Shown here: in pieces, positions 3,428 through 53,776 of the stretch
Layout: the number at the start of each line of letters is the position of its first letter
How positions within the stretch are numbered: position 1 is the stretch's first letter
Assembly (NCBI RefSeq): GCF_016900095.1
Contig: NZ_JACJJP010000024.1
Coordinates: 1 to 53,776 of the forward strand
Length of the DNA stretch: 53,776 nucleotides
From: Gemmiger formicilis
GTDB taxonomy: Bacteria > Bacillota > Clostridia > Oscillospirales > Ruminococcaceae
Direction: 5' to 3'
Position numbers and translations under genes: made by a program
The notes under the pieces: generated by a model
What the model saw: the letters and a program-made list of their open reading frames with translations, nothing else
Told to the model about the DNA's origin: nothing
Database searches by the model: none

Positions 3428-3469
3428 GGGTGTGATTCCTCCTGTTCGTTTGGGGAAGGTAGATGCAGA

Positions 3470-3611
3470 GCCTCCCCTGTGCAAGGGAAGTCGGGGCACA
3501 GCCCCGGAAGGGTTGTGGAGTTTGCCGTATTTGCCGTTCGCGGGCAACAACAGCAAGTTTCCAACCCCTCAGCCGCCTTCGGCGCCAGCTCTCCTTACAC
3601 CGGGGAGCCTT
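3470..3611 (+). repeat. Degenerate A-type hetero-palindromic repeat
   Basis: The element keeps both ends of the A family (CCTCCCCTGTGCAAGGGA on the left, TCCTTACACCGGGGAGCC on the right) and the inner GGGTTG / CCAACCCCTCAG arms. Several stem positions are mutated, so it looks like an old copy. It lies about 40 bp upstream of the EamA start codon. Confidence 0.75.
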
Positions 3612-3642
3612 TTGGGTTTATGCTTCCCGGGGGGCAAAAAAA

Positions 3643-4677: not shown

Positions 4678-4983
4678 TCCTTCCTTTTGTGACCAAAAGG
4701 AAGCGAAAAGTCCCACCGTTTCGACGCGGTGGACGCCGACCAGGGCTGCGGCCCTGGACCCGGAGATGCGGCCACCTTACGACGGCCTACTCAGGTCCTG
4801 GGGGACCTGAGCAAGGAATGGATTTAGAAATCCTTGCGGGGGAGCCTCCCCTGTGTAAGGGGAGGTGCCGCGCAGCGGCGGTGGGGTTGGAAACCATGCC
4901 TGATTTCCCGTTACCGGGTAATGCCGTCAAGTCTCCAACCCCTCAGTCGCCTTCGGCGCCAGCTCCCCTTGCACAGGGGAGCC
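4678..4983 (+). repeat. Composite repeat locus: B(+) then A(+), right B missing
   Basis: B copy at 4678-4817 with its hairpins in order: CTTCC..GGAAG, CCACCG..CGGTGG, CCAGGGC..GCCCTGG, CTCAGGTCC..GGACCTGAG. A copy at 4843-4983 with R-type left arm and S-type right arm. The expected inverted right-hand B is absent; only diverged traces (for example AAAAGGTGGCCGCACTCC near 5004) remain before the hairpins at 5050. No gene is present between 4283 and 5175. Confidence 0.8.
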
Positions 4984-5049
4984 ATTACCAGCTGCTGCCG
5001 GGAAAAGGTGGCCGCACTCCAACGGGGCAAGGTTTCTCACCCAACCATT

Positions 5050-8150: not shown

Positions 8151-8805
8151 GGCTTTTCCGGGCAGACGGCTGCCTGCCGTGGGGTTGTCGCTTTTTGGCG
8201 TCAAAAAGCGACGGAAAACCGCCACCGTTTCGACGCGGTGGACGCCGACCAGGGTTTTCAACCCTGGACCCGTGTGCGGCCACCTGACGACGGCCTATTC
8301 ACCGGCCTGGGGGCCGGTGAACAAGGAAATGGATTTAAAACCATTTCCCGGCAGCAGCTGCTGAAGGCTCCCCTGTGTAAGGGGAGCTGGCGGCCGTCAG
8401 GCCGACTGAGGGGTTGGAGACTTGACGGGTTTGCCCGGTAACGGGAAATCAGGCAGGGTTTACAACCCCTCCGCCGCTGCGCGGCACCTCCCCTTACACA
8501 GGGGAGGCCTGGAGGAAGATGCGACTGCGCGGCACATCCCCTTGCACAGGGGAGGCTTTCCGGAAGCGCCATTTTAATCATTTTCCTTGCTCAGGTCCCC
8601 CAGGACCTGAGTAGGCCGTCGGTAGGTGGCCGCATCTTGGGGTCCGGGGCCGCAGCCCCGGCCGGCGGCCGCCGCATCGGAACGGCGGGACTTTTCGCTT
8701 CCTTTTGGTCACAAAAGGAAGGACTCAACGGCAGGCCGCCGCTTGCCAGGAAGTGTACAACCCCTCAGTCGCCTTCGGCGACAGCTCCCCTTACACAGGG
8801 GAGCC
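8151..8805. mobile_element. Composite repeat element B(+)-A(-)-B(-)
   Basis: Left B copy 8187-8329 (stems GTCGCTTTTT..AAAAAGCGAC, CCACCG..CGGTGG, CCAGGGTT..AACCCTGG, TTCACCGGCC..GGCCGGTGAA). A copy in inverted orientation 8366-8508 with an extra R-arm fragment at 8526-8557. Inverted right B copy 8583-8722. A right-arm fragment of A lies outside at 8758-8805. The left outer end resembles GGCTTCTTGGCAAGCGGC only loosely; the right outer end CCGCTTGCCAGGAAG (about 8739-8753) is closer. No open frame here looks like a protein, and no transposase is encoded. Confidence 0.75.
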
Positions 8806-12952: not shown

Positions 12953-13483
12953 CGGCTCCCCTGTGTAAGGGGCGGCTTTGCGGACGAGCCGAGACCGGCT
13001 CCCCTGTGCAAGGGGAGCTGGCGGCCGCAGGCCGACTGAGGGGTTGTAAGCTTGGTGGTGTTGCCCGGTAATGGGAAATCGGGCAAGGTTTACAACCCCT
13101 CCGCCGCTGCGCGGCACCTCCCCTTACACGGGGGAGGCATAGGGAGAAAAAGGCGGCACCTACCCTTGCATAGGGGAGGCTTTTCGGAAGTGCCATTTTA
13201 ATCATTTTCCTTGCTCAGGTCCCCCAGGACCTGAGTAGGCCGTCGCAAGGTGGCCGCACTCCCCGGGTCCAGGGCCGCAGCCCTGGTCGGCGTCCACCGC
13301 GTCGAAACGGTGGGACTTTTCGCTTCCTTTTGGTCACAAAAGGAAGGACTTTCCGTCAAGCACCCGCTTGCCAAGAAGCAAGAGGCAGACCAACCCCTCC
13401 GCCGCTGCGCGGCACCTCCCCTTACACAGGGGAGGCTTAGGGAGAAAAAGGCGGCACCTCTCCCCTTGCACAGGGGAGGCTTT
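12953..13483. mobile_element. Composite repeat locus A(-)-B(-) with A fragments, left B missing
   Basis: A arm fragment 12953-12977; A copy in minus orientation 12996-13138; R-arm fragment 13153-13180; inverted B copy 13207-13346 (stems CTCAGGTCC..GGACCTGAG, CCAGGGC..GCCCTGG, CCACCG..CGGTGG and CTTCCTTTT..AAAAGGAAG). The outer end CCGCTTGCCAAGAAGC is at about 13366. Beyond it lie further A right-arm fragments at 13391-13438 and 13451-13483, the last ending 5 bp before the stop codon of the AP-endonuclease-like gene. Confidence 0.8.
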
Positions 13484-14352: not shown

Positions 14353-14854
14353 GGGTCACACCGCCTTTTTCGTAGTATCGGCGCACAAAGGGCTTTTCCA
14401 GCCTGCGCTTGAGGCGCACCACCTTGTTCTTGTCGTGGGGGGTGCGGGGCAGCACATACAGGCACTGGATGCCGTACAGCCCCGCCGCCATCCGGTCGGT
14501 GAAGATCTGGTCCCCCACCATGGCCATGGCGCTGCGGGGCACCCCCAGCCGGTGCCGGGCCACAAACAGCCCCACCGGCAGAGGTTTGCAGGCCAGAGGC
14601 ACAAAGGCCAGGCCCACCCGCCCCGCAAAGGGCCGCACCCGCTTGGCGGTGTTGTTGGACACGATGGTCAGCGAGATACCGGCGGCGCGCATGGTATCCA
14701 GCCAGGCCTGGACGGATTCGTCCAGCTGCTGGCTGCCGTCGCCGGTGAGGGTGTTGTCCACATCCAGCACCAAAGCCCGGATGCCCCGGCTGCGCAGAAA
14801 TTCCGGGGTGATGGATTCCACATGACGGAAGATGATTTCGGGTGTTAGCAGCAT
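14345..14854 (-). CDS. yqeG: YqeG family HAD-IIIA phosphatase
   Basis: A 169-aa HAD hydrolase of the YqeG family. The first motif is LVLDVDNTLT (residues 29-38) with nucleophile Asp31 and general acid Asp33. The second is IVSNN near residue 65, and the third is MVGDQIFTDRMAA near residue 113. Relatives include bacterial YqeG and mitochondrial phosphatidylglycerophosphatases (Gep4/PTPMT-like role), so dephosphorylation of PGP is possible but not shown by the sequence. The length is typical. The start follows AAGGAGCC at 8 nt. It is the first gene of a two-gene unit with the AP-endonuclease-like gene. Confidence 0.9.
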   Translation of the reverse strand: MLLTPEIIFRHVESITPEFLRSRGIRALVLDVDNTLTGDGSQQLDESVQAWLDTMRAAGISLTIVSNNTAKRVRPFAGRVGLAFVPLACKPLPVGLFVARHRLGVPRSAMAMVGDQIFTDRMAAGLYGIQCLYVLPRTPHDKNKVVRLKRRLEKPFVRRYYEKGGVTHE

Positions 14855-14912
14855 GGTGTTGGCTCCTTGGTTGTGATCGGGTATGAACTGATGGAAGATA
14901 TTTGTTTTTTAC

Positions 14913-15363
14913 GGCTTCTTGGCAAGCGGCTGCCTACCGGAGTGTTGTCGCTTTTTGACGCCAAAAAGCGACGGAAAAAGCGCCACCGTTTCGACGCGGT
15001 GGACGCCGACCAGGGCTGCGGCCCTGGACCCGGGGATGCGGCCACCTTACGACGGCCTACTCAGGTCCTGGGGGACCTGAGCAAGGAAGAAATTAAAAAC
15101 CATAAGGGAAAGTCGTTGCCAATCCGGAGTCTGCCATGAGCTGTTGCTGTTGGGCAATGGTATAAAAATCATACCTTGTTCACCGGGCCCCAGCCCGGTG
15201 AATAGGCCGTCCCGGAGGGGTGGCCGCACATGGGTCCAGGGTTGAAAACCCTGGTCGGCGTCCACCGCATCGAAACGGTGGGACTTTTCGCTTCCTTTTG
15301 GTCACAAAAGGAAGGCCCCAACGGCAGACTGCCGTCACCCCGGCAGCCTCCAATCCGCCAAGC
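14913..15363. mobile_element. 'Empty' composite repeat element B(+)-core-B(-)
   Basis: Left end GGCTTCTTGGCAAGCGGC at 14913, B copy 14947-15088, a core of about 85 bp without any A repeat (15089-15173), inverted B copy 15174-15315, and a degenerate right end at about 15346-15363. The left B has the stem-5 variant CTCAGGTCC..GGACCTGAG and the right one TTCACCGGGC..GCCCGGTGAA, so the arms are not simple copies of each other. It fills the gap between yqeG and the rpsU terminator. Confidence 0.8.
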
Positions 15364-15372
15364 AAAAAACAA

Positions 15373-15403
15373 AAAGCAGACCCGCCGCAGCGGATCTGCT
15401 TTG
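15373..15403 (-). terminator. Terminator of rpsU
   Basis: Leftward stem AAAGCAGATCCGC / GCGGGTCTGCTTT followed by TTGTTTTTTG. It begins about 60 bp past the rpsU stop. Confidence 0.85.
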
Positions 15404-15462
15404 CCGTTCCTTTTGTAAACACGGGTCATCAAATGCAGCCATACAGCCGCTTTTGCCGAAAT

Positions 15463-15639
15463 TTACTTATACTTGCGCTTGCGGGCGGCTTCGGACTTCT
15501 TCTTGCGGCGCACAGAAGGCTTCTCATAAGCCTCGCGCTTGCGCACTTCGGCCAGGACACCGCTGCGAGCAGTGCTGCGCTTGAAACGGCGCAGGGCGCT
15601 CTCCAGGGATTCGCCCTCCTTGACACGGATCTCCGACAT
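15463..15639 (-). CDS. rpsU: 30S ribosomal protein bS21
   Basis: A 58-aa basic protein beginning [20 protein letters not shown], the typical bS21 opening, and ending in a lysine/arginine-rich tail ([16 protein letters not shown]). It binds the 30S platform near the anti-Shine-Dalgarno region of 16S rRNA. The start at 15639 has GGGAGGG 7 nt upstream. A longer open frame on the same strand in another phase overlaps it but is a shadow. The gene is monocistronic with a consensus promoter at 15709-15738 and a strong terminator. Confidence 0.97.
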
Positions 15640-22600: not shown

Positions 22601-23058
22601 GAAGGCAGACGGGAGTCTGCCGGGGGAAACGGCTGCTTGCCGTTACCTCTTTCCTTTTCGTGCCCGAAAAGGAAACGAAAAGGGCCCGCCGTTCCGATGC
22701 GGCGGCCGCCGGCCAGGGTTTTCAACCCTGGACCCGTGTGCGGCCACCCCTCCGGGACGGCCTACTCAGGTCCTGGGGGACCTGAGCAAGGAAAATGATT
22801 AAAACGATGCTTCCGGAAAGCCTCCCCTGTGTAAGGGGAGGTGCCGCGCAGCGGCGGTGGGGTTGGAAACCATGCCTGATTTCCCGTTACCGGGCAATAC
22901 CGTCAAGTCTCCAACCCCTCAGTCGGCCTTCCGGCCGCCAGCTCCCCTTGCACAGGGGAGCCTTCAGCAGCTGCTACCGGGCAATGGTATTAAAATCCCT
23001 TCCTTTTCGGGCACGAAAAGGAAAGAGTCCCCGGCAGACTGCCGTCCGCCAAGAAGCC
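22601..23058. mobile_element. Composite repeat element B(+)-A(+)-B(-) with the right B largely deleted
   Basis: B copy 22650-22793 of the second sequence type (stems TTTCCTTTTCG..CGAAAAGGAAA, CCGCCG..CGGCGG, CCAGGGTT..AACCCTGG). A copy 22820-22962. Of the right B only stem 1 is left (22999-23025); the segment from the stem-5 hairpin to stem 2 has been lost, with the junction just after ATTAAAATCCC. The right outer end GCCAAGAAGCC is at about 23048-23058. No gene lies in 22545-23079. Confidence 0.75.
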
Positions 23059-29332: not shown

Positions 29333-29891
29333 GGCTACTTGGCAGGCAGCTGCCGACCGGGAACTCTTTCCTTTTCGTGCCCGAAAAGGAAACGAAAAGG
29401 GCCCGCCGTTCCGATGCGGCGGCCGCCGGCCAGGGTTTTCAACCCTGGACCCGTATGCGGCCACCCCTCCGGGACGGCCTACTCAGGTCCTGGGGGACCT
29501 GAGCAAGGAATGGATTTGAATAGCACCTCCAAAAAGCCTCCCCTGTGCAAGGGGAGGTGCCGCGCAGCGGCGGTGGGGTTGGAAACCTTGCCCCCTTTCC
29601 CGTCATCGGGCAATACCTCCAAGTCTCCAACCCCTCAGTCGCCTGTCGGCGCCAGCTCCCCTTGCACAGGGGAGCCTTCAGCAGCAGCTGCCGGGAAATG
29701 GTTTCAAATCCTTATCCTTGTTCACCGGCCCCCAGGCCGGTGAATAGTCCGTCGTAAGGTGGCCGCATCCCCGGGTCCAGGGCCGCAGCCCTGGTCGGCG
29801 TCCACCGCATCGAAACGGTGGCGGTTTTTCCGTCGCTTTTTGACGCCAAAAAGCGACAACTTTCCGGCAAACTGCCGCTTGCCAAGAAGCC
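29333..29891. mobile_element. Complete composite repeat element B(+)-A(+)-B(-)
   Basis: Left end GGCTACTTGGCAGGCAGC; B copy 29365-29510 (second type: CCGCCG..CGGCGG stem 2); A copy 29536-29676; inverted B copy 29715-29857 (first type: CCACCG..CGGTGG, with stem 1 CGCTTTTT..AAAAAGCG); right end GCCGCTTGCCAAGAAGCC. The two B arms belong to different sequence types. It is one of the best-preserved filled copies. Confidence 0.8.
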
Positions 29892-31982: not shown

Positions 31983-32039
31983 TTTTTATGTTGCGGGCTG
32001 CTTGGCGGACGGCAGGCAGCCGCTTGGGGAGCCGAGATT

Positions 32040-32640
32040 GGCTCCCCTGTGTAAGGGGAGCTGGCGGCCGGAGGCCGACTGAGGGGTTGTGAGCTTATTT
32101 TGGCCTCCCGGTAACGGAAAATGTCGCAAGGTTTCCAACCCCTCCGCCGCTGCGCAGCACCTCCCCTTACACAGGGGAGGCTTAGGGAAAAAGCGGCAGC
32201 ACTCCCCCTTGCACCGAGGAGGCGTTCCGGAAGCAGAGACCGGCTCCCCTGTGTAAGGGGAGCTGGCGGCCGGAGGCCGACTGAGGGGTTGTGAGCTTAT
32301 TGTGGCCTCCCGGTAACGGAAAATGTCGCAAGGTTTCCAACCCCTCCGCCGCTGCGCGGCACCTCCCCTTACACAGGGGAGGCTTAGGGGAAGCAGCATT
32401 TTAAAAACTTTCCTTGCTCAAGCCCCCCAGGGCTTGAGTAGGCCGTCGGTAGGTGGCCGCACACCCCGGGTCCAGGGCCGCAGCCCTGGTCGGCGTCCAC
32501 CGCGTCGAAACGGTGGGACTTTTCGCTTCCTTTTGGTCACAAAAGGAAGGACTAAATGGCAGGCAGCCGTTACCCAAGAAGCGAGAAACAAACCAGCCCC
32601 TCGGCCGCTGCGCGGCACCTCCCCTTACACAGGGGAGGCT
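32040..32640. mobile_element. Repeat locus A(-)-A(-)-B(-) with tandem A copies
   Basis: Two nearly identical A copies in minus orientation (32040-32182 and 32242-32383) repeat with a 202-bp period; the second carries GCGCGGC where the first has GCGCAGC. A degraded R arm lies between them (about 32187-32222). An inverted B copy follows at 32411-32550, with the stem-5 variant CTCAAGCCC..GGGCTTGAG. An A right-arm fragment ends the locus (32594-32640). The left B is missing. There is no gene between 31930 and 32744. Confidence 0.8.
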
Positions 32641-40662: not shown

Positions 40663-40668
40663 CCCAAA

Positions 40669-40811
40669 GGCTCCCCTGTGTAAGGGGAGGTGCCGCGCAG
40701 CGGCGGTGGGGTTGTGAAGTTTCCCTGGCATCCCGTTACCGGGCAACCACAGCAGCCCTCCAACCCCTCAGTCGGCCTTGCGGCCGCCAGCTCCCCTTGC
40801 ACAGGGGAGCC
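40669..40811 (+). repeat. Solitary complete A repeat after pflA
   Basis: A copy in plus orientation: R-type left arm (GAGGTGCCGCGCAGCGGC), GGGGTTG, a central CCCGTTACCGGG hairpin, CCAACCCC, and S-type right arm with inner stem CGGCCTTGCGGCCG. No B copies accompany it, so A can exist alone. Confidence 0.85.
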
Positions 40812-40830
40812 GGTCTCTGCCCCTCTATAC

Positions 40831-41570: not shown

Positions 41571-43546
41571 TATTTTCTCCTTGCCACCGGCAGCAGGGGC
41601 TGTCCGGTGCGCTTGCGCCAGCCCCACCACAGCAGGGCCAGCAGGGTCAGGGCGCTGACGAGCTCCGCCCCGCGCCAGGTCAGGGGCGCCGAAAATTCCA
41701 CCGTGAGCAGGCCGTCGTATCCTGCGGCCAGCACCACGCCCAACCGCCCGTCGTTCAGGGTGGTCAGGGCGGCGGTGCCCCCGTCCATCCGGGTGATGGT
41801 GTATCCGGGATAGGCGATCAGGGGCAATTCCACCATGCCGTCGGCGCCGCTGCCGTTGGCGGCGTCCAGGGTCAGGGTCAGGCCCCGGCGCTCCACCAGG
41901 TCGGCGCTGACCCCGTCGGTCACCACCAGAGCGGTGTTGTCGGAAGTTTCGGGGTCAAAGGTCACGGGCAGGTATTCCAGGGCGCTGCTCACCTTGCCGC
42001 TGTCCAGTTCCCGGCTTTCGCCCGCCCGGTCCCGGCCGTAGTCGCCCCGCAGATACTGGCCCATGTCCATCCAGGCGGACACCAGCGCCACCGACAACAG
42101 GCAGGCGGCGCAGGCCAAAGCCGCCCTGCGGCCATGAAGGGCCAGGGTTTCGTCGGTCTGCAGGCGGGCCACCCCCGCCGCCGCCACAAAGCACAGGCAG
42201 GGAGAGGCCAGCACCAGAAACCGGAAGGGGAACTGTACCGCGCAGGCATAGTGGGCCAGGGTCTGGCCCACGGCGTTGCTGAAGTTGGCCCAGTCAAAGC
42301 TGCTGCACAGGTAGATGCACCCCACGGCGCAGACCAGGCAGGGCAGGCAGAGCTGGTCGGTCTTGCGGTGGGCACCGGCGGCCCGCAGAGCGGCGTAGAG
42401 CACCACCCCCAGCACCAGCCCGGCGCCCAGGCGCAGGGTGTCCATGTTGGTGGGGGTCCAGAAATCCAGCAGCATGGTCCAGTTCACCGCGGTGGCGGTG
42501 GGGGAGTTGACGCTGGACACATCGGTGATGCGGTAGTCGCCCCCCATGTACTGCAAAAAGGGCACCAGGAATCCCAGGTTGAGCAGCACGCTGAGCCCGG
42601 CACCCTTGAGCAGGGTCATCAGCCGCTTTGGCTGCAAAGCCTTGCGCCAGCAGAAGACAACCAGCACCACCGCCGCCAGAGCGGTGATCTCGGTGGTGAG
42701 CAGATGGCTCTGCACCAGGCCGGTGAACCCGATGAGCAGAGGCAGCCAGGCGCCCTTGCGCTGGGTTTCGTCGGCGTCGTCGGCGTACAGGGCCCAGAAC
42801 CCGTAGAGCACCACCGGCAGGAAGATCTGGGCGGTGATCTCGCCGGCGGCCTGCCGCCAGTAGAGGTTGAACAGCCGGTAGTTGCAGCAGGCATACAGGA
42901 AGGTGCCCACATAGGCGGGCAGACGGCGGCGGAAGATCTTGTGCAGGCAGAGGTAGGTCACGCCCACCGTCAGGGCGTTGACCAGCACGTTGAAGAAGTT
43001 GTAGGCGGTGAAGAGGGGATACCCCGCCAGCACCAGCAGGGCCGGGATGTAGAGCAGGGCCTCGCCGTAGAAGATGGGGCTGGCGTAGCCGTAACCGTTG
43101 AGGAAGTCCGGGTAGAGGAAGACAGGGAACTGCCCGGTGCGCAGGCCCTCGGCGATGCCCGCCACCCGGGACATGTGGTAGTGCAGGTCGGAGCCGTAGG
43201 GGGCAAAGCCGCCGAGGCATCCCAGGCTGACCAGCAGCACCAGCCCGGCCAGACCCACAAAGGTGACGCGGCGGCCCTTGTCCGCCCGGTGGAGAAAGAG
43301 CAGCAGAATGTCCAGGGCGGCAAAAAGCACAAAGGCCGACCCCCATTGGACCAGCCGCCAGCCCCACAGTTCCCGCACCTCCAGGCTCAGGAACCGGAAG
43401 TCGGTGTTGCAGGCGTTGACCAGCACCCCGGCATCCTCTGCGGGCACGTCGTTCTGCATCCAGAAATGGCCGGTGAAGTTGTTGACGGTGCCTTCCAGGG
43501 TCATGGCGGCGGACACATCCACCGCCTCCCCGGTCTGGAACACCAC
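41570..43546 (-). CDS. PTPS-related membrane protein, N-terminally truncated
   Basis: The open frame gives 658 aa with about a dozen hydrophobic segments and a C-terminal extracytoplasmic beta-rich part. It resembles the '6-pyruvoyl-tetrahydropterin synthase-related' membrane proteins, which despite the name look like GT-C/YfhO-type transferases. It is a clear paralogue of the protein at 45959-48313: both have SDLHYHMSRVAGIAEGL-like and YPDFLNGYGYASP-like stretches and an identical FWALYADDADETQR. The paralogue has an N-terminal helix and about 150 extra residues. Here the only start with a ribosome site (ATG 43580, encoding MKKLRALPRW) is out of frame and shares ALPRW with the paralogue. The 5' part therefore looks deleted, and the protein may be defective. 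Confidence 0.8.
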   Translation of the reverse strand: MVFQTGEAVDVSAAMTLEGTVNNFTGHFWMQNDVPAEDAGVLVNACNTDFRFLSLEVRELWGWRLVQWGSAFVLFAALDILLLFLHRADKGRRVTFVGLAGLVLLVSLGCLGGFAPYGSDLHYHMSRVAGIAEGLRTGQFPVFLYPDFLNGYGYASPIFYGEALLYIPALLVLAGYPLFTAYNFFNVLVNALTVGVTYLCLHKIFRRRLPAYVGTFLYACCNYRLFNLYWRQAAGEITAQIFLPVVLYGFWALYADDADETQRKGAWLPLLIGFTGLVQSHLLTTEITALAAVVLVVFCWRKALQPKRLMTLLKGAGLSVLLNLGFLVPFLQYMGGDYRITDVSSVNSPTATAVNWTMLLDFWTPTNMDTLRLGAGLVLGVVLYAALRAAGAHRKTDQLCLPCLVCAVGCIYLCSSFDWANFSNAVGQTLAHYACAVQFPFRFLVLASPCLCFVAAAGVARLQTDETLALHGRRAALACAACLLSVALVSAWMDMGQYLRGDYGRDRAGESRELDSGKVSSALEYLPVTFDPETSDNTALVVTDGVSADLVERRGLTLTLDAANGSGADGMVELPLIAYPGYTITRMDGGTAALTTLNDGRLGVVLAAGYDGLLTVEFSAPLTWRGAELVSALTLLALLWWGWRKRTGQPLLPVARRK

Positions 43547-45279: not shown

Positions 45280-45876
45280 GGCTTCTTGACAGACGGCAGG
45301 CTGCCGGAGTGTCCTTCCTTTTTGTCACCAAAAAGGAAGCGAAAAAGTGCCACCGTTTCGACGCGGTGGACGCCGACCAGGGCTGCGGCCCTGGACCCGG
45401 GGTGTGCGGCCACCTGACGACGGCCTATTCACCGGGCTGGGGCCCGGTGAACAAGGAATGGTTTTAATACCATTGCCCGGTAGCAACTGCTGAAGGCTCC
45501 CCTGTGTAAGGGGAGCTGGCGCCGAAGGCGACTGAGGGGTTGGAAACTGACCGGTATTGCCCGGTAACGGGAAATACGGCAAGGTTTACAACCCCTCCGC
45601 CGCTGCGCGGCACCTCCCCTTGCACAGGGGAGGCTTAGGGAGAAAAAGGCGGCACCTCCCCTTGCACAGGGGAGGCTTTCCGGAAGCATCTTTTTAATCA
45701 TCTTCCTTGCTCAGGTCCCCCAAGACCTGAGTAGGCCGTCGTAAGGTGGCCGCATCTCGGGGTCCGGGGCCGCAGCCCCGGCCGGCGGCCGCCGCATCGG
45801 AACGGCGGGCCCTTTTCGTTTCCTTTTCGGGCACGAAAAGGAAAGCCCCCCGGCAAGCACCCGCTTGCCGAGCAGC
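45280..45876. mobile_element. Composite repeat element B(+)-A(-)-B(-)
   Basis: B copy 45313-45458 (stem 5 TTCACCGGGC..GCCCGGTGAA with loop TGGG); A copy in minus orientation 45495-45634 with an extra R-arm fragment 45649-45674; inverted B copy 45703-45845 of the second type, with stem 3 CCGGGGC..GCCCCGG. Outer ends GGCTTCTTGACAGACGGC and CCGCTTGCCGAGCAGC. It separates the NUDIX operon from the next membrane protein gene. Confidence 0.8.
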
Positions 45877-45958: not shown

Positions 45959-48313
45959 TTATACGGTTTTCCGTTTCCGGCTGCGGACCAGCCCAAAGAC
46001 CAGCCCCGCCAGGGTGAGCAGGCTCACAACCTCCGCCGCCCGCCAGGACAGGGGTTCGGCAAAGCCCACGGTGAGGGTGCCGTCGTAGCCCGGTTCCAGC
46101 ACCACGGCCACCTGGCCGGTCTCGCCCCTGGTCACCACGGCGGCGCCGCCGTCGTTGGCCAGCACCTGATACCCCGGATAGTACACCAGGGGCAGTTCCA
46201 GGTTGGCGTTCTGGTCGGCGCTCTCATTCACCAGCCGCAGGGTATAGCGCAGGCTGCCCTTTTCCAGCACCACACAGCTCAGATAGTCGCTGGGGGCCAG
46301 GTTGGGGTTTTCCGCCTGTTCCAGGGCGAACTCCGCCGGCAGATACTCCATGGCGCTGCTGGTGGCGGTGTCCGAAAGGCCCTCGGTGGTGCCGTGACGG
46401 CTGCGTCCGAACTGGGCGTCGGTGTAGGGCAGCAGGTCCAGCCCCGCAAACACCACGCACAAAGCCACCAACCCCGCGGCGCAGATCTGCCCGGCGCGGC
46501 TGCCGGCCAGGTTGCCCAGCAGCCAGACCAGGGCCCCGCCCGCGGCGGACAGCCCCAGCACCGCAAACACCAGAAACCGGAAGGGGAACTGGAAATTCAG
46601 AAACATCCGGCCGACGCTCTCGCCCATCCACCCGGCCAGGGTGGTCCAGCCGGTAAAGCCCACCAGAAGGGTGGCAAAGCCGCCCAGCAGCAGCCCCGCC
46701 TTGCCCGCCTGGCGGCCCCGGCCGGGCAGGTCGGATTTCCAGACCAGCACGGCCAGCAGGCCCGCCGCGGCCAGCAGCAGCGGCGCCCCCAGATGGATAT
46801 AATCCACCTTGGTGTTCCAGGGCTGAAGCAGCCCGGCCAGGGAGATGGCGTAGCCCGCCGGGTCGATGGCGTTGGAATCCGCCCGGAAGCGGTAGTTGCC
46901 CCCCAGCTCCTGGAGCATGGGCACCACGAACCAGGCACACAGCCCCACCGTGAGCAGGGCCCCCTGCAAAAGTGTGAGCAGCCGCCGGGGCCGGAAGGCC
47001 CGCCTGGCGCAGCACAGCACCGTGAACACCGCCATGATGGCGGCCAGCTCGGTGGTGATGGTGTGGGTGAGGATCACCCCGCTGAACCCGAAGGCCAGAG
47101 GCAGGAAGGCGCGGCGGCGCTGGGTTTCGTCGGCATCGTCGGCGTACAGGGCCCAGAACCCGTAGAACAGCAGGGGCAGGAAGGTCTGGGCACAGGTTTC
47201 GCCCAAAGCCGGGCGATAGTACATGTTGAACAGCCGGTAATAGGCGGTCATGTACAGGGCGGTGGCGGCCAGGGCCGCGGCCCGTCCCCTGAAGATGCGG
47301 GAAAAACTCCACCAGCTGATGGCGGCGGTGAGGATGTGCACCCCCACCAGCAGCAGGTTGTACGCCCTGAAGAGGGGCATGCCCGCCAGCACCAGCACCG
47401 CGGGGAAGTACAAAAGCAGATCCCCGTAAAACAGAGGGCTGGCGTAACCGTACCCGTTCAGGAAGTTGGGGTAGATGCGCACCGGGAACTGACCGTCGGC
47501 CAGACCTTCGGCCACGCCCGCCAGCCGGGACATATGAAAGCTCAGGTCAAAGCCGTAGGAGACGGCGTCGTTGAGCACCGGCAGGCTGCAGGCCAGCACC
47601 AGGCCGGCCAGCACCGCCAGCACCACCCGGCTTTGGGGCCGTGGCAGCAATCCGGTGCCGGGCAGCAGGGCCAGCAGCAGCCAGTTGGCCAGCAGCAGCA
47701 CGGCCAGCCAGCCCAGGGCGCAGGTCACATCGTACCAGCCCTGGCGGTGGAGGGTGATGCTTTGCAGCGTCCAGTCGGCGTGATCCGCCCCGAAGACCAG
47801 CCGCACCCCGGCGTCGGCCTCCTCCAGCCAGACCACGTGGGTGACGGTGCCCCCCGCCTTGTCGGTGGCGGGCAGCGCCGCGTTCATATCGATGATGTCC
47901 GCCGATTCCGGCAGCAGCTGCAGCTGGGCGTCCTGCCCGGCCGTGTACGCCACCGTCACCAGATACCGCCCCGCCGGCAGGGCAAAGGCGTCGCTGACCA
48001 GCAGGGAAGGGGGCGGGGTCTCGTCCTCCGTCTCCTCCCCGGCGTCGGTCGTGTCCGGCTGGGCTTCTTCCGCCCCGTCAAACAGGGTGGTTTTGCGGGC
48101 GTCGGGGGTCACCGACCCGTCGGCGCCGGTTTCCAGGGTCAGGGTGTCGGCGTACTGGTTGGTCAGATCAGCGGGGGTAAAGCTGCGGTAGGCGGGGGTT
48201 CCCACACCCCGCAGCAGCACCAGCACCACCCACACCAGCTCCGCCAGCAAAAGCAGGGGCATCCACCGGGGCAGGGCCACCGGGCCTTTGGGGGTTTTCA
48301 ATACAATCTGCAT
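45959..48313 (-). CDS. PTPS-related polytopic membrane protein
   Basis: A 784-aa protein. One N-terminal helix (residues 19-38) is followed by an extracytoplasmic domain of about 160 residues, then a dozen hydrophobic segments (about 205-650) and a C-terminal beta-rich extracytoplasmic part ending in a last helix near 760. Conserved stretches are FDLSFHMSRLAGVAEGL near 248 and YPNFLNGYGYASPLFYGDLLLYFP near 272, read as two adjacent motifs. The family is annotated as '6-pyruvoyl-tetrahydropterin synthase-related' and resembles YfhO/GT-C glycosyltransferases, so a role in envelope glycan modification is plausible. Its start is only 33 bp after gyrA on the same strand, suggesting co-transcription. 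It is the intact paralogue of the truncated copy at 41570-43546. Confidence 0.82.
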   Translation of the reverse strand: MQIVLKTPKGPVALPRWMPLLLLAELVWVVLVLLRGVGTPAYRSFTPADLTNQYADTLTLETGADGSVTPDARKTTLFDGAEEAQPDTTDAGEETEDETPPPSLLVSDAFALPAGRYLVTVAYTAGQDAQLQLLPESADIIDMNAALPATDKAGGTVTHVVWLEEADAGVRLVFGADHADWTLQSITLHRQGWYDVTCALGWLAVLLLANWLLLALLPGTGLLPRPQSRVVLAVLAGLVLACSLPVLNDAVSYGFDLSFHMSRLAGVAEGLADGQFPVRIYPNFLNGYGYASPLFYGDLLLYFPAVLVLAGMPLFRAYNLLLVGVHILTAAISWWSFSRIFRGRAAALAATALYMTAYYRLFNMYYRPALGETCAQTFLPLLFYGFWALYADDADETQRRRAFLPLAFGFSGVILTHTITTELAAIMAVFTVLCCARRAFRPRRLLTLLQGALLTVGLCAWFVVPMLQELGGNYRFRADSNAIDPAGYAISLAGLLQPWNTKVDYIHLGAPLLLAAAGLLAVLVWKSDLPGRGRQAGKAGLLLGGFATLLVGFTGWTTLAGWMGESVGRMFLNFQFPFRFLVFAVLGLSAAGGALVWLLGNLAGSRAGQICAAGLVALCVVFAGLDLLPYTDAQFGRSRHGTTEGLSDTATSSAMEYLPAEFALEQAENPNLAPSDYLSCVVLEKGSLRYTLRLVNESADQNANLELPLVYYPGYQVLANDGGAAVVTRGETGQVAVVLEPGYDGTLTVGFAEPLSWRAAEVVSLLTLAGLVFGLVRSRKRKTV

Positions 48314-51015: not shown

Positions 51016-51466
51016 GGCTTCTTGGCAAGCGGCTGCTTGCCGGGAACTCTTTCCTTTTCGTGCCCGAAAAGGAAACGAAAAGGGCCCGCCGTTCCGATGC
51101 GGCGGCCGCCGGCCAGGGTTTTCAACCCTGGACCCATGTGCGGCCACCCCTCCGGGACGGCCTACTCAGGTCCTGGGGGACCTGAGCAAGGAAAAAATTT
51201 TGAAAATCCTTGCGGGAAAGCACTTGCCAACCCATAGCCTGCCATTAGCAGCTGCCATCGGGCAATGGTATTAAAACCATTCCTTGTTCACCGGGCCCCA
51301 GCCCGGTGAATAGGCCGTCGTCAGGTGGCCGCACTCCCCGGGTCCAGGGCCGCAGCCCTGGTCGGCGTCCACCGCATCGAAACGGTGGGACTTTTCGCTT
51401 CCTTTTGGTCACAAAAGGAAGGACCAAACGGCTGCCAGCCGTTTTCCCGGCAGCCAGCCGTCTGCC
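51016..51466. mobile_element. 'Empty' composite repeat element between gyrB and gyrA
   Basis: Left end GGCTTCTTGGCAAGCGGC (51016-51033); B copy 51049-51193 (second type); a core of about 87 bp with no A repeat; inverted B copy 51281-51422 (first type); weakly conserved right end. The core ends GGGCAATGGTATTAAAACC, the same sequence that flanks the A insert in filled copies. The stretch 50924-51477 has no other feature. Confidence 0.82.
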
Positions 51467-51477
51467 AAAAAAATCAA

Positions 51478-53776
<2,299 letters not shown>

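Follow-up and report, generated by a model that had tools for sequence, protein, structure and literature searches.

Two-sided stem changes in a mosaic palindromic repeat family of Gemmiger fit DNA palindromes better than a typical structured RNA

Covariation between the two sides of a stem is the standard argument for selection on an RNA fold. A stretch of 53,776 nt from Gemmiger formicilis (contig NZ_JACJJP010000024.1; referred to here, at its full length, as the window) carries many copies of a repeat of about 140 nt, the B unit, in which an initial annotation made from the sequence had reported compensatory changes in several stem-loops, read there as the mark of a fold under selection, such as that of structured RNAs or of the hairpins of mobile elements. 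The locus thereby raises the question whether such changes mark a structured RNA or arise at the level of the DNA itself.

Repeat searches of the window located all 14 B units and the remnant that had been listed before, at the same coordinates, and the stem alleles quoted with them are present in the window copies (Table 1). Seven units lie on the forward and seven on the reverse strand, mostly as inverted B+...B- pairs, five of which are complete in the window, besides one unit with a remnant partner and three single units. In the pairs that were read, the middle consists of either an 85-nt segment or a repeat termed A, which is made of other hairpins. Since the units pair as inverted arms around a middle, the B unit is regarded as the arm of a larger paired element. 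Inverted pairs were also found in stretches of genomes G007, G009, G010, G012, and G021, and single units occur too.

Table 1. Repeat features of the window (positions in nucleotides from its first letter) and arms with an exchanged module
Feature	Position or locus	Strand	Basis or scope
B unit, single, adjoins A repeat	4678..4818	+	repeat searches
B unit, left arm, paired with 8583	8187..8328	+	repeat searches
B unit, right arm, paired with 8187	8583..8723	-	repeat searches
B unit, single, adjoins A repeat	13207..13348	-	repeat searches
B unit, left arm, paired with 15174	14947..15088	+	repeat searches, folding
Middle (85 nt) of the 14947/15174 pair, with comparable middles in certain other pairs free of A repeats	15089..15173		by eye
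B unit, right arm, paired with 14947	15174..15315	-	repeat searches, folding
B unit, partner reduced to stem 1	22650..22793	+	repeat searches
Solo stem 1 hairpin, right-arm remnant	22999..23025	-	repeat searches
B unit, left arm, paired with 29715, A repeat in between	29365..29510	+	repeat searches
B unit, right arm, paired with 29365	29715..29857	-	repeat searches
B unit, single, adjoins A repeats	32411..32551	-	repeat searches
B unit, left arm, paired with 45703, A repeat in between	45313..45458	+	repeat searches
B unit, right arm, paired with 45313	45703..45852	-	repeat searches
B unit, one arm of the gyrB-gyrA spacer pair	51049..51193	+	repeat searches, spacer comparison
B unit, other arm of the gyrB-gyrA spacer pair	51281..51422	-	repeat searches, spacer comparison
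A repeat	3447-3612		repeat searches
A repeat	4841-4986		repeat searches
A repeat	12975-13147		repeat searches
A repeat	22817-22964		repeat searches
A repeat	29533-29678		repeat searches
A repeat	32018-32392		repeat searches
A repeat	40663-40825		repeat searches
A repeat	45493-45643		repeat searches
A repeat	53507-53776		repeat searches
Arms with replaced stem 3-stem 4 stretch	L039, L047, L049 (G000); L067, L074 (G010)		two species

The A family (CCCCTCAGTCGCC...GGGGAGCC hairpins) is encountered within B pairs as well as alone, and in some B arms the stretch from stem 3 to stem 4 is swapped for a similar module of about 110-120 nt made of other hairpins. Elsewhere in the window, positions 42582-43252 and 46941-47611 share about 70% identity at a distance of about 4.36 kb, as if they were neighbouring duplicate genes. 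A Pfam scan of 40 open reading frames of the window detected gyrB and gyrA and no transposase; the mechanically called frames at 8637 and 29818 begin within B units, and their Pfam domains start further on.

Each arm contains five palindromes (stems 1-5), and its two ends, judged by inspection of the consensus, consist of stem 1 and CAAGGAA. Four arms were folded as single-strand DNA, one of these on both strands, and each of the five folds was better than all 200 of its dinucleotide shuffles, with z-scores from -5.8 to -7.2. The unpaired linkers ACGCCGACC, RAAA, and TTYCGA are kept across species and, by eye, are largely retained in more distant species that carry further versions of stems 2 and 3. 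Stem 4 is constant (GGCC-ACC...GAC-GGCC) and, as judged by eye, has two A-C contacts on the unit strand that read as two G-U pairs outwards. Stems 1, 2, 3, and 5 were parsed in 153, 161, 152, and 116 of 181 matches, respectively, using a stem finder that allows one mismatch, and a few of the stem 1 assignments are false hairpins. The TGGG loop of stem 5, initially described as constant, is the rule in the genomes read rather than invariable, TGGA, TGG, and longer G-runs being rare variants; one copy on another contig of the same genome (L041:9875-10017) carries its reverse complement, CCCA. Inverted loops were likewise found in stem 1, with GCGT in five copies and ACGC in four. By eye, the stem alleles look block-swapped, as if recombined between copies.

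The changes in the stems were counted in cores, for which 181 nhmmer matches were reduced to 127 full-length, non-identical cores and these to 45 representatives from six genomes. Among the representatives, 13 of the 23 pairs vary on both sides, and the 1027 cells comprise 132 two-sided changes, 1 one-sided change, and 8 unpaired states; the two-sided counts were reached by none of 500 shuffles, and slid structures gave at most 14 such cells. These tables include a U-G at columns 49-56 within stem 2, which is constant and never varies. The lone one-sided cell belongs to a row of G012 (L098:1466-1557) that also carries pair-breaking changes, and a 43-row alignment that excludes two G012 rows and in which four G007 rows were lengthened gave 123 two-sided, 0 one-sided, and 2 unpaired cells. 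Among the 2330 cells that 22 stem pairs give in all 127 full-sequence cores (107 distinct, seven genomes), 333 were changed on both sides, 1 on one side, and 9 were unpaired; this count excludes pair 78-86, since in the commonest allele these columns fall within the TGCG loop, and their inclusion would raise the one-sided cells by 42. The B rows are many copies from few genomes, so that cells are not independent events, and with few alleles per stem within the window the changes seen there represent few events. The initial annotation had proposed covariation in at least three stems as a check; three helices exceeded the shuffled and slid controls, which stood in for R-scape, and the compensatory changes are thus real and far above these controls.

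The SRP RNA of the same genus, used as a control, behaved differently, with 48 one-sided, 29 two-sided, and 12 unpaired cells among 645 (33 of 35 genomes matched, 30 loci obtained, 27 aligned, and 19 distinct rows; the three loci left out, G000 among them, had the SRP RNA elsewhere in the locus). A G-U state occurs in 1 of the 14 variable B pairs as compared to 13 of 14 in SRP RNA (p = 1e-5), in a count that does not extend to stem 4 with its outward G-U pairs, and in a wider stem parse 7 of 9 wobble-type cells would be G-U on the outward strand only. The part of PMC8794818 used here states that RNA helices are commonly held to pass through wobble pairs, that template switching can create multi-base compensations and loop inversions in hairpins, that rRNA genes contain more multiple compensations and loop inversions compatible with template switching than simulation yields, and that compensation combined with loop inversion is not enriched. 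The single one-sided cell among 1027, set against 48:29 in SRP RNA, together with the block-swapped stem alleles and the inverted loops, indicates DNA palindromes, in which mutation by template switching and gene conversion can yield compensation. DNA palindromes that evolve in concert therefore account for the two-sided changes better than a structured RNA of the usual kind would, and while the changes themselves stand, their reading as a signature of fold selection gives way to a pattern that points to palindromic DNA; the hairpins of mobile elements, also named in the initial annotation, may still apply.

On balance, we favour the reading that the B family is a genus-limited mosaic of intergenic hairpin arrays, BIME-like at the DNA level, in which stems are kept perfect by hairpin templating and copies exchange modules. 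As a rule, two unlike arms stand opposite one another with a variable middle between them, and copies would swap entire stems and middles through recombination or gene conversion, as suggested by the mosaics and by orthologous sites. Stems 1, 2, 3, and 5 would be kept as near-perfect Watson-Crick palindromes, most likely through hairpin-templated correction by template switching at the replication fork, with hairpins of single-stranded DNA acting as putative templates for their own repair; the DNA hairpin itself may, or may not, be selected as well. It is at the level of DNA that the near-perfect palindromes, the swapping of blocks, and the inverted loops find their best explanation, and the template-switch proposal is based on pattern counts. 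Two features speak against a reading at the DNA level only, namely the conserved linkers, which stem repair alone leaves unexplained and which would suit a recognised RNA or protein site, and the G-U pairs of stem 4, which an outward RNA would allow.

The limitation to the genus is apparent from genome-wide searches. A degenerate core pattern and a covariance model both detected 39 cores in the genome of the window, and at an E-value of 0.001 the model matched 27 of the 35 genomes of the genus, with 0 to 63 cores per genome and some of the 27 having one to five weak matches only (127 candidates were scored per genome, and the matches were listed in part). In an order-wide sample, 3 of 295 genomes matched at an E-value of 1e-4 under stricter filters, including the genome of the window (2 of 294 others), with 15 candidates scored per genome, a setting at which weak members outside the genus may escape. 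The 369-nt pair had no blastn match in phages or plasmids, which rules against a phage or plasmid origin, and one 27-nt pattern had no exact match in viral contigs.

In an alternative that we consider unlikely, the B unit is a structured RNA, acting as a cis-acting 3' structure, a small RNA, or a bidirectional intrinsic terminator. It shares covarying helices and conserved linkers with bacterial structured RNAs, and the outward G-U pairs of stem 4 are in its favour. Moreover, outward stem 2 is followed, after a short gap, by 3-5 T derived from a conserved linker, and each pair would thus stop transcription both ways; in the 14947/15174 pair this arrangement scored terminator-like in both arms, and 6 terminator-like sites were found in 14800-15500 (one outside the element) versus 1.0 in shuffles. 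However, the T-run is down to 3 in some species, and about one-third of arm edges are already preceded by a terminator-like hairpin (in three genomes, 32 of 101 edges have one pointing at the element within 130 nt, versus 0.7 in control flanks that were shuffled in two-base blocks rather than taken from other gene ends). No promoter-like site was found in 14800-15500, where 0.3 would be expected. The initial annotation had not recognised a known RNA class in the family; Rfam gave no match in the window at gathering score, and four sub-threshold matches lie around the 14947/15174 pair. The near absence of wobble in the covarying stems also separates the family from such RNAs, although the elements carry arms in both orientations, and selection for an RNA from each strand could be another way of losing wobble pairs.

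Inverted arms, core numbers that differ widely between genomes of one genus, and the state of the gyrB-gyrA spacer in relatives would also agree with a classical MITE, i.e., a DNA transposon that is non-autonomous, bears long terminal inverted repeats, and is moved in trans by a host transposase, an explanation that we hold to be doubtful. In four Faecalibacterium the spacer measures 16-29 nt, and in L103 it measures 16 nt, whereas the window and L099, L101, L102, L104, L108, and L140 carry all or some of B there. In L100, solo stem 1 alone remains, as expected if the palindromic stem 1 doubles as a direct repeat for deletion. In L105, L107, and L120 the spacer contains a REP-associated tyrosine transposase-like reading frame where the window has B, and similar frames were seen by eye in L109, L111, L112, L113, L114, and L129; a GTAG-tagged palindrome lies, by eye, inside the frame of such a gene, and NCBIfam scored those of L107 and L120 below its cut-off.

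A sharp outer boundary, as a MITE would have, was not seen in G000, G007, G009, G010, or G021, where flank similarity fades gradually over further hairpin modules. Of the 11 genomes with ten or more cores, 3 had RAYT-type genes and 8 gave no match, versus 14 of 24 having such genes among those with fewer cores (p = 0.15), and G012 has 16 cores and neither a PF01797 nor a RAYT-type match. A RAYT or IS200 mobiliser was rejected, as core number showed no positive association. No parent transposon with the same ends was seen when 16 genomes of the genus were searched for PF01797 and 35 for RAYT-type genes, and ten PF01797 loci (L029-L038, one from G000) contain neither B nor A. One of these, L030 (G000:C88), holds an IS200-type transposase gene with, by eye, end hairpins of its own, and a second candidate gene is located at G000:C66.

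Several sites are occupied alike in G000 and in G009 or G010, and those insertions are consequently old, in stretches of G009 and G010 that were selected for carrying copies and in which empty sites are invisible. At six shared sites, among the matches listed, orthologous arms of two species have a mean identity of 0.845 (n = 11) as compared to 0.822 for others (n = 941); the arms of the C17 site are nearly identical in both species. Orthologous arms that are barely closer than others, together with middles that look species-specific by eye, suggest concerted evolution or repeated replacement. Between the paired arms of an element, mean identity is 0.739 (n = 12) versus 0.824 for all arm pairs (n = 561), as if the arms were of an X and a Y type. 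A long arm-to-arm hairpin is unlikely as a conserved structure, because random arms resemble each other more than the two arms of an element do.

Among known repeat systems, BIMEs are described in the part of PMC2817692 used here as palindromes in alternating orientation forming mosaic composite repeats that are dynamic and species-specific, and the B family shares the alternating (inverted) orientation and the mosaic build. REPs, in the consulted section of PMC3733652, are repeats of 20-40 nt tagged by GTAG or CGTC; by that description B differs, having arms of 140 nt with five stems and no such tag seen at the ends, and its abundance is not associated with RAYT genes. With neither tag nor RAYT association found, it does not belong to REP/BIME in the strict sense. 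The pneumococcal BOX, RUP, and SPRITE elements are inverted repeats with stable hairpins that bunch with other repeats, as far as the relevant part of PMC10969869 describes them. To that extent, hairpins, bunching, and inverted repeats at both ends (with heterotypic arms and a variable middle) link the B family to them and to MITEs, but neither sharp ends nor a parent insertion sequence were found. The same part of PMC3733652 presents TIRtrons as long inverted repeats of RAYT-like transposases that form repeat families, a feature that B resembles, although 8 of the 11 core-rich genomes had no RAYT-type match. A literature search found no description of the B family, a weak negative given its incomplete coverage of subscription papers. 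The family would be a genus-limited variant of mosaic palindromic repeats that has no match in the libraries and literature searched.

A further proposal, to which we give little credence, holds that the stems, in arrays crowded around the replication origin, evolve almost only by DNA-templated double-sided changes, with covariation being largely mutational; the arrays would then act as cruciform or hairpin sites that replicate early and help to organise the chromosome. The 39 cores are confined to 8 of 98 contigs (C14, C16, C17, C22, C24, C25, C34, and C39), together 476 of 3257 kb, and 19 of the cores lie on the gyrBA and dnaA contigs, which form 2 percent of the assembly. The core-bearing contig C39 carries recF, dnaN, and dnaA and, by gene order, should adjoin the window contig. 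In the complete relative G004, with dnaA at 1.48 Mb, 30 protein pieces were mapped; those from core-bearing contigs lay 0 to about 1.5 Mb away, as did those from core-free contigs, with C16 and C22 partly near and C14, C24, C25, and C34 far. General clustering at the origin is thus not supported by this mapping, though gene order is scrambled, the pieces of one contig lying far apart.

The confinement to 8 contigs could also reflect contamination or misassembly, but an artefact is highly improbable, as there is a single gyrB, on the window contig (the other long match, on C11 at 35% identity, was read as parE), dnaA, dnaN, and recF lie on another core-bearing contig, and the family extends through the genus.

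Taken as mosaic palindromic DNA, the B family has consequences beyond this genome. Going by covariation scores alone, one could take it for a new class of RNA, even with wobble intermediates almost missing, and it stands as a warning to RNA-discovery pipelines about palindromic DNA repeats. With its many parallel copies and species, the family makes stem repair by template switching open to direct testing. Finally, it provides a marker for a genus of gut bacteria.
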